A DNA stretch of 64,000 nucleotides from Sulfuriroseicoccus oceanibius (lineage in GTDB: Bacteria > Verrucomicrobiota > Verrucomicrobiia > Verrucomicrobiales > SLCJ01), in assembly GCF_010681825.2 (NCBI RefSeq), contig NZ_CP066776.1, positions 3,410,001-3,474,000 of the forward strand. The letters are read 5' to 3'. The notes under the pieces are model-generated. The model saw only the letters and a program-made list of their open reading frames with translations, had not been told where the DNA came from and did not search any database. Numbering within the stretch: position 1 is the first letter of the stretch; every line of letters starts with the position of its first letter. Of the stretch, positions 4,226 to 42,694 are shown piece after piece. Both the position numbers and the translations under genes were made by a program.

Positions 4226-5005
4226 TCAACTACGCCGGCGCAGGATCATGGCAAGTCCCCCGAGACCCAAAAGCACCGCCGCCGACGGCTCTGGAACAGC
4301 GGCCAATGCCTCGGTGTCAACCCGTACATAGTCGATCTGCCATTCGCCGCTCAGCGACCCGGAAAAGTCACCGATGAACGTGTTGTTATCGAAGCTTCCT
4401 CCATTGGTTCCGGCGATGGGAGTCGAAAGATCCGTGTTAAGCAGCACGTCGTTCACCCAGTAGTAGTAGGCATTGTCCACCGCATCGTGGGCGACCCGCA
4501 CGGTGTGGAACCCGGTACTGAAGTCAGTCCCCACCAGATAATCGGCACCGCCATTCAAGCGGATCCGGTCATCGAGGACATACACCGCGCTGGAATTGCT
4601 CTCACTGAGGTTGGCCGTTGCGATCCCGAACCAACCATTCGAACCCTGGGTGCCGGAAACCTTGGCAAAGCGCACCTCCATCGTCCACGTGGACGCGGCC
4701 CCACCCGATACCAATTCACGCCACATGCTCCCCGCACCACCGGCATTAAAGTCTCCTCTCAAGAGCGTGGCGCTGGTTGCTTGGTTTGAGAACGCAAAAC
4801 CACCCGACACGGCAGGGCTGGTAAAGCCTCCGGAAGTTCCATTGAACCAATCCTCAGCCCCCAGTCCGTCAAGGTTTTGGGTGGTAGGATCGACGTCCAT
4901 TTCATACTTGTAATCGAAGGTCGAGGAATCAGCGATTGCAGTGATCGCCGCATCGGCACCAGCAGAGGTCGCAACCATGGCTACGACGAGGGATTTCCAT
5001 TTCAT
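4226..5005 (-). CDS. PEP-CTERM exported protein, LamG/concanavalin-like
   Basis: 259 residues. The ATG at 5005 has AGAAG about 8 bases upstream and starts a signal peptide (MKWKSLVVAMVATSAGADA). The mature part begins with a FDYKYEMDVDPTTQNLD segment. In the middle, GWFGIA, DDRIRLNGGADY, FHTVRVAHD and YYYWVNDVLLNTDLSTPI follow the order of a LamG/concanavalin-type jelly roll (inference). The tail is VPEPSAAVLLGLGGLAMIL and RRRS. It is a clear paralogue of the protein at 6448-7239, sharing the ADSSxFDYxYEMD start, the GFHTxRVA strand and the DDVLLN-type hairpin. The likely role is as a surface or matrix protein, perhaps binding glycans. The final residue is S where the others have K. Confidence 0.9.
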   Translation of the reverse strand: MKWKSLVVAMVATSAGADAAITAIADSSTFDYKYEMDVDPTTQNLDGLGAEDWFNGTSGGFTSPAVSGGFAFSNQATSATLLRGDFNAGGAGSMWRELVSGGAASTWTMEVRFAKVSGTQGSNGWFGIATANLSESNSSAVYVLDDRIRLNGGADYLVGTDFSTGFHTVRVAHDAVDNAYYYWVNDVLLNTDLSTPIAGTNGGSFDNNTFIGDFSGSLSGEWQIDYVRVDTEALAAVPEPSAAVLLGLGGLAMILRRRS

Positions 5006-6162: not shown

Positions 6163-6200
6163 TCAAACACCCCGCCCTCCAACATCGGAGAACGGGGTGC
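6163..6200 (-). terminator. Hairpin terminator, probably of the PEP-CTERM gene at 6448-7239, displaced by an insertion
   Basis: The inverted repeat CACCCCG/CGGGGTG (6168-6174 and 6193-6199) is followed in the minus direction by a short T run. It lies 248 bp past the stop at 6448. Without the 203 bp formed by the inserted element and one TTA copy, the distance would be about 45 bp, as for the neighbouring genes. Confidence 0.65.
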
Positions 6201-6247
6201 CACTTCTTACTTCGCTCAGACGCAATTCATGAACGGCAGTAATCTTA

Positions 6248-6447
6248 TACCATTTAAACGGTCACCTTGTCGTAACCGATGGGGTTGAGTAACTAGGATC
6301 AGAGATAAAGACAGTGATCTTGGCGGGATATTTTTGAGTGATGCTGTGTTGCTCACAGCTCAGGTAGCCCGCTGGCATCGCGGTTCGCGCCTTGCCTCAC
6401 TCGAAAAAGCTCTCCGCCATTCCGCCAATTTGACCTTTCAAATGGCA
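6248..6447. mobile_element. Small inverted-repeat element, copy 1 (200 bp), abutting a stop codon
   Basis: The ends are imperfect inverted repeats: TACCATTTAAACGGTCA at 6248-6264, and the complement of TGACCTTTCAAATGGCA at 6431-6447. TTA flanks both sides (6245-6247 and 6448-6450), and the right TTA is the TAA stop codon of the PEP-CTERM gene. The interior matches copy 3 (25834-26034) in inverted orientation over nearly the whole length, with scattered substitutions. It contains no open frame of note and no transposase, so it would have to be moved by an enzyme encoded elsewhere. The layout is that of a MITE. Confidence 0.85.
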
Positions 6448-7239
6448 TTATTTACGGCGGCGCAAGATCAGCGCAGCACCACCAAGTCCGAGAAGCACAG
6501 CGGATGACGGCTCGGGAACCGCCACCGGAGCGAATGCGCCATCTGCTTCCATCCGAATGTAGTCCACCCCCCAGTCGGCGCTGCCGAAGCCTCCGCTGCT
6601 GTAGTCACCAATGAACCACGACCCACCCGAGTTGAAGTTTCCGTTACCTCCACCGATCGGCGTGCTCAGATCCGCATTCAGCAGCACATCGTCGATCCAG
6701 ATGTAGTAGTTATCGCCGCCTTCCTTCGCCACGCGCATCGTGTGGAAGCCTGAAGTAAAGTCCGTACCATTCAGGTACTCTGAATAACCGCCGCCGGTCT
6801 CACGCACCTTGACGTGGTCGTCTGCAAACGCGACCACGATCGAGTTACTCGCTCCCGGCATCTGCAACGCAGCCCCGAACCAGCCCAGAGTACCCTGGCT
6901 GCCACCTTGCTTGGAGACACTGAGCTCCATAGTCATAGGATTGGCATCGGAGAAGTTGTTGCGCAGGATACTCCCCCCGAAGTCGACGCGGAACAGATTC
7001 TCGCCTGCGGAGTCATTGGAGTACGCCACCCCACCGGTATAGGTCTGGGGAATCGTGGCGCCACTGACGGTGCCCCCAAACCAGTCGTTGGTAGAATTGG
7101 AGTCCAAATCCAGGGTCGCTGGATTCGTGTCCATTTCGTACAGATAATCGAAACCCGACGAGTCGGCTTCGGCGACAATCGCAGCATGAGCTCCGAGAGT
7201 CGAAGCTGCGAGCACTGCCAATGTATGCATGTGTTTCAT
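6448..7239 (-). CDS. PEP-CTERM exported protein, LamG/concanavalin-like
   Basis: 263 residues from the ATG at 7239 (MKHMHTLAVLAASTLGAHA signal peptide). An in-frame extension upstream lacks a signal sequence. The mature part has ADSSGFDYLYEMDTNPATLD, GWFGAALQMPG, GFHTMRVAKEG, YYIWIDDVLLNADLSTPIGG and a WGVDYIRMEAD strand. The tail is VAVPEPSSAVLLGLGG, a hydrophobic run and RRRK. It is a paralogue of the protein at 4226-5005 with the same order of landmarks. Its TAA stop is also the flanking TTA of the inserted element at 6248-6447, so transcripts must cross the element before reaching the hairpin at 6163-6200. There is no strong ribosome-binding site. Confidence 0.9.
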   Translation of the reverse strand: MKHMHTLAVLAASTLGAHAAIVAEADSSGFDYLYEMDTNPATLDLDSNSTNDWFGGTVSGATIPQTYTGGVAYSNDSAGENLFRVDFGGSILRNNFSDANPMTMELSVSKQGGSQGTLGWFGAALQMPGASNSIVVAFADDHVKVRETGGGYSEYLNGTDFTSGFHTMRVAKEGGDNYYIWIDDVLLNADLSTPIGGGNGNFNSGGSWFIGDYSSGGFGSADWGVDYIRMEADGAFAPVAVPEPSSAVLLGLGGAALILRRRK

Positions 7240-7394
7240 ATTGATTTTGTTTCTTTGGTTAATCACGCCAACCCAGTTGCGGTTCATCCATTACAAACCG
7301 GACCGAATCGGCAGCGATGAACCTACCCAACCAGCACTCGGTCTTTCCACGCCCTTGAAGCGGCTCTATTTAGAACCAGTCGCACCACGTCAAA

Positions 7395-11191: not shown

Positions 11192-11598
11192 ACTGCTAGT
11201 AGACCGGCAGTTCGTTGGAGCTGCCGGCCTACCAAGGCAACCGCGCGCCTAGGTGGTAAACCGTCCCTTCGGGACGACTGATGTGTCACTCGTTGAACCT
11301 GCGGTTGAAACCGCAGGCTAGCCGGTAACGCGTCGCTCCGCGACGAAATGCACCGAATATCGCCCCTGGTGATTAGACGATACCGGCTACAGACGCCGCC
11401 CTCCCGGAGCGCGCACTATCACTCAAGAGTCCCACACGGCCACAGCCGATCGCTCGCCGAGCGAGGAGGAAGGTCAGCCTCTCCCCGAAGCCAGCACCTC
11501 CCCCCGCCTGGAGAGCTTTCCCAGTCGCGAGGCTTTACCCCGCGACGCGAGGCTCTACCCACCGCGAGGCTCCACCCACCGCGAAGCCATCATCCATC

Positions 11599-11684
11599 GC
11601 GGAGCGATCGCTTGCCGGCTAGCCTGCGGTTTCAACCGCAGGTTCCTAGCCTCGGGAAAATCCCGCGCCGTAGGTGCGGTTTAC
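11599..11684. repeat. 86-bp dispersed repeat, copy 1
   Basis: Begins GCGGAGCGATCGCTTGCCGG and ends GGTGCGGTTTAC. It contains the 20-bp palindrome at 11623-11642. The second copy is at 11931-12016. Confidence 0.8.
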
Positions 11685-11930
11685 CGCGAACATCCTTCAC
11701 ACCCAAGCCATCGATTGGGATCGCGATATCGATGAGGAGGTTGCGCCCCCCCACACTGGCTTCGCTCCAATAGCGATAGCTTCGCATCCCCCAATGCCTT
11801 CGTGAACTTAGAGCCCTTCGTGGTTTCGCACCCACACAGCCCTCCGCCGCCGATGCCACGGCTTGAAGCGCTGGGCGGACGACAGTCCTGCCGTCGGCGC
11901 GAATCCATCACACCGAATCTCGCCCCCATC

Positions 11931-12016
11931 GCGGAGCGATGACTTACCGGCTAGCCTGCGGTTTCAACCGCAGGTTCCTAGCCTCGGAAAAACCCCGCGC
12001 CGCAGGTGCGGTTTAC
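11931..12016. repeat. 86-bp dispersed repeat, copy 2
   Basis: Begins GCGGAGCGATGACTTACCGG and ends GGTGCGGTTTAC, in the same orientation as copy 1. It contains the palindrome at 11955-11974. It lies just downstream of the deoC stop codon. Confidence 0.8.
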
Positions 12017-15788: not shown

Positions 15789-16026
15789 GAGTGGCTGATG
15801 GCGGACGGTTGGATCCGACCCCAGCCACTAAGGAGAATTCACGCCACCCCGCACCCACTTCCGTGTGACGTTTTCCACCCAGTTCTAGCACGCACTTGCA
15901 ACCAATTCGTCACAACGACTCACGTCCCCACCGCACACTAATCCGCTCCTCGGTCGACAGAGGCCACACTCCCCTCATCGACTAACGGCCCCACGCTCAA
16001 ACATCTGAACGGGGGCCGCTCTCTGA

Positions 16027-16134
16027 TACCATTTGAACGGTCAAATTGGTGGAATGGCGGCGAGCTCCTTCTTCCCCACATCTCCCACTGATCCCATCCT
16101 CATCGGATAGGCCAAGGTGACCGTTTAAAGGGTG
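16027..16134. mobile_element. Small inverted-repeat element, copy 2 (108 bp, internally deleted)
   Basis: The left end TACCATTTGAACGGTCA (16027-16043) and right end GGTGACCGTTTAAAGGGTG (to 16134) match the termini of the other copies. The interior keeps about 25 bp of the left part and about 45 bp of the right part of copy 3 and lacks about 90 bp between. A TTA at 16135-16137 follows the right end, then CTA, the complement of the TAG stop of the ArsC/Spx-like gene. The left flank is TGA rather than TTA. The rest of the 15789-16137 gap shows no gene. Confidence 0.8.
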
Positions 16135-16137
16135 TTA

Positions 16138-25740: not shown

Positions 25741-25833
25741 ACTCCGAACATGGAACCGGACATTTGAAGATTCAAGAGCCAAGAATCAAGAATGCGGACT
25801 CGCCGAGTTCGCCTCAACTCAGGCTCGCACTTA

Positions 25834-26034
25834 TACCATTTGAACGGTCAAATTGGCGGAATGGCGAAGAGCTTTTTCGAGTGAGGCAAGACGCGAACCG
25901 CGATGCTAGCGGGCTACCTGAGCGGTGAGCAACACAGCATCACTCAAAAAGATCCCGCCAAGATCACTTTCGCAATCTCTGATCCTACTCACTCGATCCC
26001 CATCGGTTCCGACAAGGTGACCGTTTAAATGGTA
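25834..26034. mobile_element. Small inverted-repeat element, copy 3 (201 bp), abutting the alr stop codon
   Basis: The left end TACCATTTGAACGGTCA (25834-25850) and the right end TGACCGTTTAAATGGTA (26018-26034) are inverted repeats with one mismatch. TTA lies directly on both sides (25831-25833 and 26035-26037), and the right TTA is the TAA stop of alr. The interior is the inverse of copy 1 with scattered changes and contains no gene. Since the RelE-like/acc operon starts about 50-95 bp from the left end, the element may also carry or displace its promoter. Confidence 0.88.
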
Positions 26035-27189
26035 TTACACCACAATCCGGCCCAGACGAGGCGACCCGAAGCGACACAGAATCTCCCACGAAATCGTCCC
26101 GGCCCGCTCTGCCAACTCGGAGGCGGTGATCTCGTCACCTCCCGCACCGCCACCCAGCACAATAGCCACATCCCCGCGCTGCGGCCGCTCGGGCAGCTCA
26201 CTCACATCCACCATGATCTGGTCCATCGTCACCCGCCCCAACAACGGACAACGCCGACCATTCACCAAAACCTCCGCCCCGCTCTCGGACAAATGGCGGA
26301 AATACCCGTCGCCATATCCGATCGCAATCGTAGCCACCGTCGTCACCGGCTCGCGCTCGGTCACAAACCGCCGCCCATAACTCACCCCGCTCCCAGGCGC
26401 CAAATCACGGACCAAGGTCACCCGCGCTTTCACATGTAGAGCCGGGCGCAAAGTCACGTCAGCATCCACAGGAGCCACCCCGTACAACAACAAACCCGCA
26501 CGCACTGTAGTCGCATGGCGGCTCGCACAGGTCAACAAGCCCGCACTATTGGCCAAATGCACCATCGGAGGCAATCCATGCTCATCCGCCAGAGCATCCA
26601 AAAACGCATCAAAGCGCGCGGTCTGGTCACGGGTAAAATCATCGTCGTCGTCAGCGGACGGGTAATGCGTCATCAGTCCATCCAGCCGCAGCCCGGCACA
26701 TTCCTCGCGGACGAACCGGATCAATTCACCCGCCACGTCAAGCACCGCCCCTTCGCGTCCCATTCCGGTATCGACCGCAACATGCACGCCCATTTCCTCA
26801 CCGGGGCGCTGGCATTCCATCTGCTCTTGATAATCCCGCGCCTCACTGACACACGAGATCACGGGAATCCAACCATTGGCAACCACCTCCGGAATATCGC
26901 CCACCGGCACCGGCCCGAGCATCAACACATCAGACGTCGCGCCCACCTCGCGGATACGCGTGGCTTCGGAAACACAAGCCACTCCAAACAAATCCACCTC
27001 AGGGTCCAGCGCCGCCGCCACCGCGCCGAGCCCGTGCCCATACGCATCCGCTTTCACCACCGCCATCAACTGCATCGGCCGTCCTGCCACCGCTGATGAC
27101 AATCCCCGCACGGCGCGGGCATTCTCCACCACGGCGGACGGATCGGTCTCGACCCAGGCGCGGTTCATCGAAAGTGGGTGGTCAGGCAT
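26035..27189 (-). CDS. alr: Alanine racemase
   Basis: 384 residues from the ATG at 27189; a start at 27168 (MNRAWVETD) is equally plausible. It interconverts L- and D-alanine for peptidoglycan. The PLP-binding Lys 46 is in AVVKADAYGHG, and the second catalytic residue, Tyr, is in GSGVSYGRRFV. MTHYPSADDDDDF, LANSAGLL, VRAGLLLYGVAP and RVTMDQIMVDV follow the family order, and the C-terminal beta domain is complete. The stop codon is shared with the flanking TTA of the inserted element. Confidence 0.95.
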   Translation of the reverse strand: MPDHPLSMNRAWVETDPSAVVENARAVRGLSSAVAGRPMQLMAVVKADAYGHGLGAVAAALDPEVDLFGVACVSEATRIREVGATSDVLMLGPVPVGDIPEVVANGWIPVISCVSEARDYQEQMECQRPGEEMGVHVAVDTGMGREGAVLDVAGELIRFVREECAGLRLDGLMTHYPSADDDDDFTRDQTARFDAFLDALADEHGLPPMVHLANSAGLLTCASRHATTVRAGLLLYGVAPVDADVTLRPALHVKARVTLVRDLAPGSGVSYGRRFVTEREPVTTVATIAIGYGDGYFRHLSESGAEVLVNGRRCPLLGRVTMDQIMVDVSELPERPQRGDVAIVLGGGAGGDEITASELAERAGTISWEILCRFGSPRLGRIVV

Positions 27190-37289: not shown

Positions 37290-37297
37290 CATCAAGT

Positions 37298-37411
37298 TCT
37301 GGCGGCGACCTACTCTCGCATGGCCTATCGCCACACTACCATCGGCGCAACGTCGTTTCACTTCCGGGTTCGGGATGGGACCGGGTGGGACCAACGTGCT
37401 ATAGCCACCAG
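37298..37411 (-). rRNA. rrf: 5S ribosomal RNA
   Basis: About 114 nt. The minus strand begins TCTGGTGGCTATAGC and contains CCCATCCCGAACCCGGAAGT, a hallmark of bacterial 5S. The ends form the closing helix. Position after 23S is standard. Confidence 0.95.
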
Positions 37412-37656
37412 ATGGCAGCCACGATTCCGATTCATTCGTTTCGTGGCTGGTAATCTGATGACCAGTTGCCTGGTTTCAGAACTTGATGAAAAAAGATCAA
37501 CGCGAACAACTCAGTCTGAGCTGACGTGTGAGTGAACCTCCTTGGGGTGATTCACTGATATCTGTATGCAGAAGAGGCAATTAGAAACACAATCTTGTGT
37601 CTTTCGATTCCCGTCATTCCTGACGTTCGTTTAGAGAAATAAAACCAATCTAAACA

Positions 37657-40498
<2,842 letters not shown>

Positions 40499-40705
40499 TT
40501 TAGATCAGTAAGTAACTCACCCCCTCAAGGGAGGATCATTACAAAATTTGCCGTTGTTAGTATTTCTACTAGACGTCAGGATAGAAATCATTGTCACACA
40601 ATGAAATTGTATTTCTATATTACTTTTTATCCTGCATACAGATATCAAAGAACCATCTCTTTTGGATCACCATCGTTCCACTCAAACCAACAACGTCTCA
40701 ATAAA

Positions 40706-40782
40706 TGGTGGGCCAGACAGGACTTGAACCTGTGACCTCACGCTTATCAAGCGCGCGCTCTAACCAACTGAGCTACAGGCCC
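40706..40782 (-). tRNA. tRNA-Ile (GAT)
   Basis: 77 nt including an encoded CCA. Minus strand: acceptor GGGCCTG, D-arm AGCTCAGTTGGTTAGAGC, anticodon loop CTTGATAAG, T-arm with GTTCAAGTC. One T-T mismatch stands in the acceptor stem. Confidence 0.97.
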
Positions 40783-40826
40783 TTCATTTGGCGTAGCCAG
40801 TAGCTGGCAGCTAGTAGCAAGGTTTC

Positions 40827-40859
40827 CCTTCCTACTCCCTACTTCCTACTCGCTACTTG
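40827..40859. repeat. CTACTCCCTAC-type dispersed repeat in the tRNA spacer
   Basis: The run of CTACTCCCTACTTCCTAC-type words in the spacer between the tRNA genes resembles 9378-9412. Confidence 0.6.
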
Positions 40860-40866
40860 AAGACGT

Positions 40867-40942
40867 TGGTGGAGGCATGGGGATTCGAACCCCAGACATC
40901 CAGCTTGCAAAGCTGGCGCTCTACCAACTGAGCTATACCCCC
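40867..40942 (-). tRNA. tRNA-Ala (TGC)
   Basis: 76 nt with encoded CCA. Minus strand: GGGGGTATAGCTCAGTTGG, anticodon loop CTTTGCAAG, T-loop GTTCGAATC. Together with tRNA-Ile it forms the common 16S-23S spacer pair. Confidence 0.97.
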
Positions 40943-41139
40943 GTTGGAAAACGGTTTTTGTGGAAGGAGAAGTAAAGACTAAAATGTGCACTGCGCGATT
41001 CCAAACGCACTCAAGGTTGTGAGTTGTCAGTTCATTTCTTCCCTGACTGCGCCAGCTTGTTTCCAAACTTATGCTGCAAGCAGCACTTAGGCGTCGACCT
41101 ATTTGCCGGATATTTCCGTGAGACGGACCGGTCAAATTA

Positions 41140-42694
<1,555 letters not shown>

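Follow-up and report, generated by a model that had tools for sequence, protein, structure and literature searches.

A MITE-like element very probably inserted at the stop triplet of a PEP-CTERM gene of Sulfuriroseicoccus oceanibius, keeping the stop codon and displacing the terminator

The window, by which is meant the whole 64,000-nt stretch of DNA analyzed here (Sulfuriroseicoccus oceanibius NZ_CP066776.1, forward strand 3,410,001-3,474,000), carries at positions 6163-7239 a gene for a PEP-CTERM protein, a short repeated element that adjoins its stop codon, and a terminator-like hairpin on the far side of the element. In window coordinates, the features are as follows:

6448..7239, minus strand: PEP-CTERM protein gene, ATG at 7239 (open reading frame; Pfam PF07589 over cut-off; TIGR02595, E 7.8e-7)
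6448..6450, no strand assigned: TTA target-site copy, read as TAA on the minus strand, where it is the stop of the PEP-CTERM gene; a direct repeat of 6245-6247 (from the sequence)
6431..6447, minus strand: terminal inverted repeat, gene end, TGCCATTTGAAAGGTCA on the minus strand (from the sequence)
6248..6447, plus strand: MITE-like element, copy 1, 200 bp (blastn matches in the genome; 25-copy alignment)
6248..6264, plus strand: terminal inverted repeat, far end, TACCATTTAAACGGTCA (from the sequence)
6245..6247, no strand assigned: second TTA target-site copy, a direct repeat (from the sequence)
6167..6200, minus strand: hairpin resembling an intrinsic terminator and assigned to the PEP-CTERM gene; distance from the stop 247 nt, or 44 nt once the element is subtracted

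The gene also has a longer frame with a start at 7287. The stretch 6245-6450 comprises 206 bp, the 200-bp inverted-repeat element being flanked by the direct TTA copies, and the gene-end inverted repeat of this copy shows two differences from the family consensus. Read in the minus-strand sense, the hairpin (6200..6167) is GCACCCCGTTCTCC-GATGTT-GGAGGGCGGGGTGT with the tail TTGACTTTA and a dG of -27 kcal/mol, and it is predicted to function as a terminator. It lies on the strand of the gene, and no gene was found between it and the PEP-CTERM stop (6448).

The spacing between stop codon and terminator was examined for the 46 PEP-CTERM genes of the 3.50-Mb genome that score over the TIGR02595 cut-off, the same rule (a hairpin plus T-tract no more than 420 nt past the stop) being applied to each. 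A terminator-like site was found for 41 of the 46 genes, with no hairpin within 420 nt of the stop in the other five. In 40 of these 41 genes the distance from the stop to the hairpin start is 8-96 nt, and the sole outlier is gene 6448..7239, at 247 nt. The original prediction had given about 248 bp for this gene and 24-55 bp for its four neighbors; for the PEP-CTERM genes ending at 2266, 3308, 4226, and 5207, the measured distances from stop to hairpin were 36, 37, 52, and 23 nt. Removal of the 200-bp element together with one 3-bp TTA (203 bp in all) brings the outlier from 247 to 44 nt, which is inside the family range and agrees with the predicted value of about 45 bp. The prediction had also described the gene as separated from its terminator. 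What is seen is a displacement, 247 vs 44 nt, but the terminator has not been cut off, being still downstream of the gene with no other gene intervening. Another PEP-CTERM gene, with its stop near 3191905 and a copy of the element nearby, was considered as a second case of terminator separation and rejected, its terminator lying at 33 nt, ahead of the element.

No orthologue of the PEP-CTERM protein or gene was found in 56 relatives, where only the PEP-CTERM tail gave matches, nor in genome_contigs. An empty-site comparison was made within the genome, using the neighbor most similar to the gene:

4226..5005, minus strand: closest paralogue (49% amino acid identity), lacking the element; its hairpin, at 4174-4138, begins 52 nt after the stop

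The sequences on either side of the element were joined, and the resulting 3' UTR and terminator were aligned locally and scored against shuffles. The alignment with the paralogue at 4226-5005 had a local score of 54, which none of 1000 shuffles matched, and it included the stem GTTCTCC...GGAGGGC, in which there is one paired change, C-G to A-T; several small gaps are present in the 3' UTR. The other three neighbors showed weak or no alignment in the same comparison (3, 65, and 376 of 1000 shuffles). When the element was kept in, a large gap was placed no more than two bases from the stop codon, but part of the short UTR was scattered. Because the paralogue has a 3' UTR and terminator that can be aligned across the insertion point, the insertion postdates the acquisition of the terminator by the gene, and it also postdates the homologous 3' region of the paralogue. 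The suggestion that the element arrived after the gene family took shape is thus borne out in that the arrangement of gene, UTR, and terminator is older than the insertion and is common to this paralogue. These comparisons support the view that the hairpin at 6167-6200 would be the gene's own terminator and the element a later addition. It could be that the hairpin is not the old terminator at all, the original having been lost or never present and the match in distance being coincidental, especially as the five genes with no hairpin within 420 nt indicate that some family members lack one. Note, however, that the hairpin and the UTR upstream of it are homologous to those of the paralogue, that the strand is correct with no gene before the stop, and that the corrected spacing of 44 nt is within the family range; such a coincidence is extremely improbable.

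The element belongs to a family for which 40 blastn matches were obtained in the genome, with 30 two-ended copies, mostly of 206-208 bp including the triplets. The family ends, TACCATTTRAACGGTCA, form an inverted repeat at both termini, and CCATTTRAACGGTCA with no more than two mismatches was located at 83 places in the genome, compared with 4 for a reversed control. Two further copies are present in the window:

25831..26037, minus strand: element copy 2, flanked by TTA/TTA; the inner TTA (26035-26037) doubles as the stop of a gene for alanine racemase
16024..16137, minus strand: element copy 3, internally deleted, 114 bp, flanking triplets TGA/TTA, no gene stop there

Identical flanking triplets were observed in 17 of 23 copies (TTA/TTA, TAA/TAA, and one CAA/CAA). 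In all 16 copies bounded by T(A/T)A at both ends, the two triplets are identical in direct orientation, for which the probability by chance is about 2^-16; a simple palindromic flank is therefore excluded, and the duplication is of 3 bp. With terminal inverted repeats, a target duplication, a length of about 200 bp, multiple copies, and no transposase gene inside, the family is best described as orphan MITE-like and non-autonomous.

The family was compared with known systems. Bacterial MITEs such as MITEAba12 (PMC6382973) and the Coxiella QMITEs (PMC5896051) are likewise short, non-coding, and multicopy, with inverted ends and target duplications. One QMITE2 copy is reported at the 3' end of enhC, where in one strain a stop codon stands immediately before the element (PMC5896051). 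The duplication made by MITEAba12 is 9 bp (PMC6382973), in contrast to the 3-bp T(A/T)A of the S. oceanibius element, and a 3-bp duplication is described for PIF/Harbinger (PMC2213677). The S. oceanibius element differs from the known MITEs in that no partner IS was found and in its frequent exact coincidence with stop codons. The family is new, while its kind, the MITE, is already known.

Target duplications of 3 bp, TNA or TWA, are also made by the IS5 superfamily (IS1031-like groups) and by PIF/Harbinger. The S. oceanibius element shares this kind of duplication with the IS5 superfamily, but a DDE transposase of that family is missing from the genome, where neither PF13359 (DDE_Tnp_4) nor PF01609 (DDE_Tnp_1) was detected. 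No full-length IS with the same ends was found, and no transposase lies between end pairs in the stretches inspected. The end pair 2000649/2003565 was considered as an autonomous 2.9-kb composite and rejected, as both ends coincide with stops of ordinary host genes and no transposase was seen between them. The parent IS may have been lost, and its absence weakens only the claim of a known parent IS. The family was found in none of the 56 relatives and its ends in none of 383 other genomes of the class; the ends were likewise absent from genome_contigs and viral_contigs, collections in which records of the same or a very near genome may be missing.

The REP/BIME, ERIC, and Correia repeats are small, interspersed sequences with strong foldback, found in intergenic and 3' regions; REPs are without terminal repeats or target duplications, and Correia elements duplicate TA. 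The S. oceanibius element is a small interspersed foldback repeat of similar appearance but differs in its clear 3-bp duplication. Identity with REP/BIME was rejected on account of this target duplication and the long inverted ends, and no link was seen to the several Y1_Tnp (RAYT-type) genes of the genome. A second repeat type, consisting of short-hairpin arrays (TCGCGAAGCGA, CCGGTTAGCCGG, CCGGAGGTTTCAACCTCCGG, CGTCCCGTAGGGACG), is in several places joined to the MITE-like element at one of its ends. Such arrays were observed at loci L081 (from 410053), L082 (from 765671), L084 (from 2969073), L085 (2197533), L086 (2340176), and L041, and the Y1_Tnp genes may be related to them. The window itself contains, at 1257-2122, tandem-like repeats (about 360 bp) in which the motif CACGCAAAGCACCCTAAGCCCCAAAG occurs; at 11577-12016, a direct repeat of 108 nt whose two copies are 87% identical and separated by 332 nt; and a complete rRNA operon (16S, tRNA-Ile, tRNA-Ala, 23S, 5S) on the minus strand at 37297-42694.

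The positions of the copies relative to genes were then considered. In 12 of the 30 complete copies, window copies 1 and 2 among them, one target triplet coincides with a stop codon, that of a called host gene; the two orientations are represented seven and five times among the 12, and the other 18 copies are located away from stop codons. Unpaired element ends were found at three TAA stops (1249043, 2000649, and 2003565). The stops struck by the family are exclusively TAA, or TGA paired with TAA; the copies at 234825 and 975054 have TGA on the gene side and TAA on the far side, pairs that would be compatible with later mutation of the stop. For copy 2, the orthologue of the alanine racemase in a genome of the same genus (G001; 63-64% identity) has the same last residue followed by the stop, with no element. 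Near-stop insertions of two types were observed at L023 (around 2637906) and L024 (around 825414): in one of them the element directly adjoins the TAA of the gene, and in the other the gene extends 13 nt into the element and ends at a TAA inside the terminal repeat. A search of the open-licence literature found no report of a bacterial MITE that targets stop codons.

Enrichment at stop codons was assessed against T(A/T)A sites outside coding sequence in 364 kb of the genome. Stop codons make up 10.4% of these background sites, and the observed 12 of 30 corresponds to P 2.4e-5; a background drawn from the 64-kb window alone had been 6.7%, and the larger sample weakened the P value by raising it. 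With a GC-matched background (14%) the P value was 5e-4. Within 150 nt 3' of genes, stops account for 26% of sites and for 12 of 18 copies (P 3e-4), or for 34% of sites after GC matching (P 0.005); these enrichment figures are limited by gene calls made with a simple hexamer model, and the P values assume no fine-scale selection against insertion into terminators. Much of the pattern follows from a T(A/T)A target in combination with selection against insertions that damage genes, and a residual preference may be real. One interpretation of the residue is an active preference of the transposase for stop codons or their context, over and above the T(A/T)A triplet and such selection, which would add to the insertion reading and is not an alternative to it. 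The excess over each background speaks for such a preference, but what is left after matching is modest and depends on the gene calls, and the restriction to TAA (or TGA paired with TAA) is what the triplet alone predicts; we consider an active preference rather unlikely. Integration directed to TAA stops, whether guided by the sequence context or by a link to the termination of translation or transcription, is a still more doubtful proposal.

A clear terminator is present beyond the element in three of the 12 stop-codon insertions, at 1373025 (26 nt), 2887325 (23 nt), and 3416245 (44 nt), and displacement of a terminator by the family is therefore not unique to the PEP-CTERM gene. For the transcribed element, folding predictions give a single long imperfect hairpin (-75.5 kcal/mol, z -5.0). 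It could be that the element is a functional 3'-UTR module, such as an RNA stabilizer, an RNase III substrate, or a modified terminator, that is selected just after stops, and both this strong foldback and the 12 of 30 complete copies adjoining a stop codon would fit such a role. However, foldback is expected of any element with inverted ends; changes on both sides were seen in only 4 of 47 consensus pairs, mostly inside the terminal repeats, and the covariation term gives no good support to a selected RNA structure. In addition, both orientations occur at stops, 18 of the 30 copies lie elsewhere, and internal terminator-like hairpins of -10 kcal/mol or better were absent from the copies except for one weak match in one copy. 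A functional module of this kind is very unlikely, and the simplest view is that the insertion is near-neutral.

The reading that we hold to be very probable is that a MITE-type element inserted at the stop triplet of the PEP-CTERM gene, that the stop was kept, and that the old terminator was displaced. A non-autonomous 200-bp DNA transposon with the ends TACCATTTRAACGGTCA would have inserted into the TTA complementary to the TAA stop, presumably by cut-and-paste through a DDE transposase that today is either missing or unrecognized. The 3-bp T(A/T)A duplication would have preserved the stop codon, leaving the PEP-CTERM protein unchanged, and the old 3' UTR and terminator would have been shifted downstream by 203 nt, so that the distance from stop to terminator grew from about 44 nt to 247 nt. 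Transcription would then cross the element and end at the old terminator, which would still be in use, so that the 3' UTR would gain a foldback of about 200 nt with little effect on the protein.

The spacing of terminators within a gene family can be used as an insertion detector where no close relative is sequenced. In a GC-rich genome, stop codons can serve as harmless landing sites for a mobile element of small size whose target is TAA/TTA, and insertions there remodel 3' UTRs while sparing proteins and terminators; the PEP-CTERM gene illustrates this clearly, with a comparison available inside the genome. Should the residual preference for stops be real, it would represent an uncommon safe-harbor strategy, and if integration were truly directed to TAA stops, the family would have a built-in way of landing between gene and terminator without damage.
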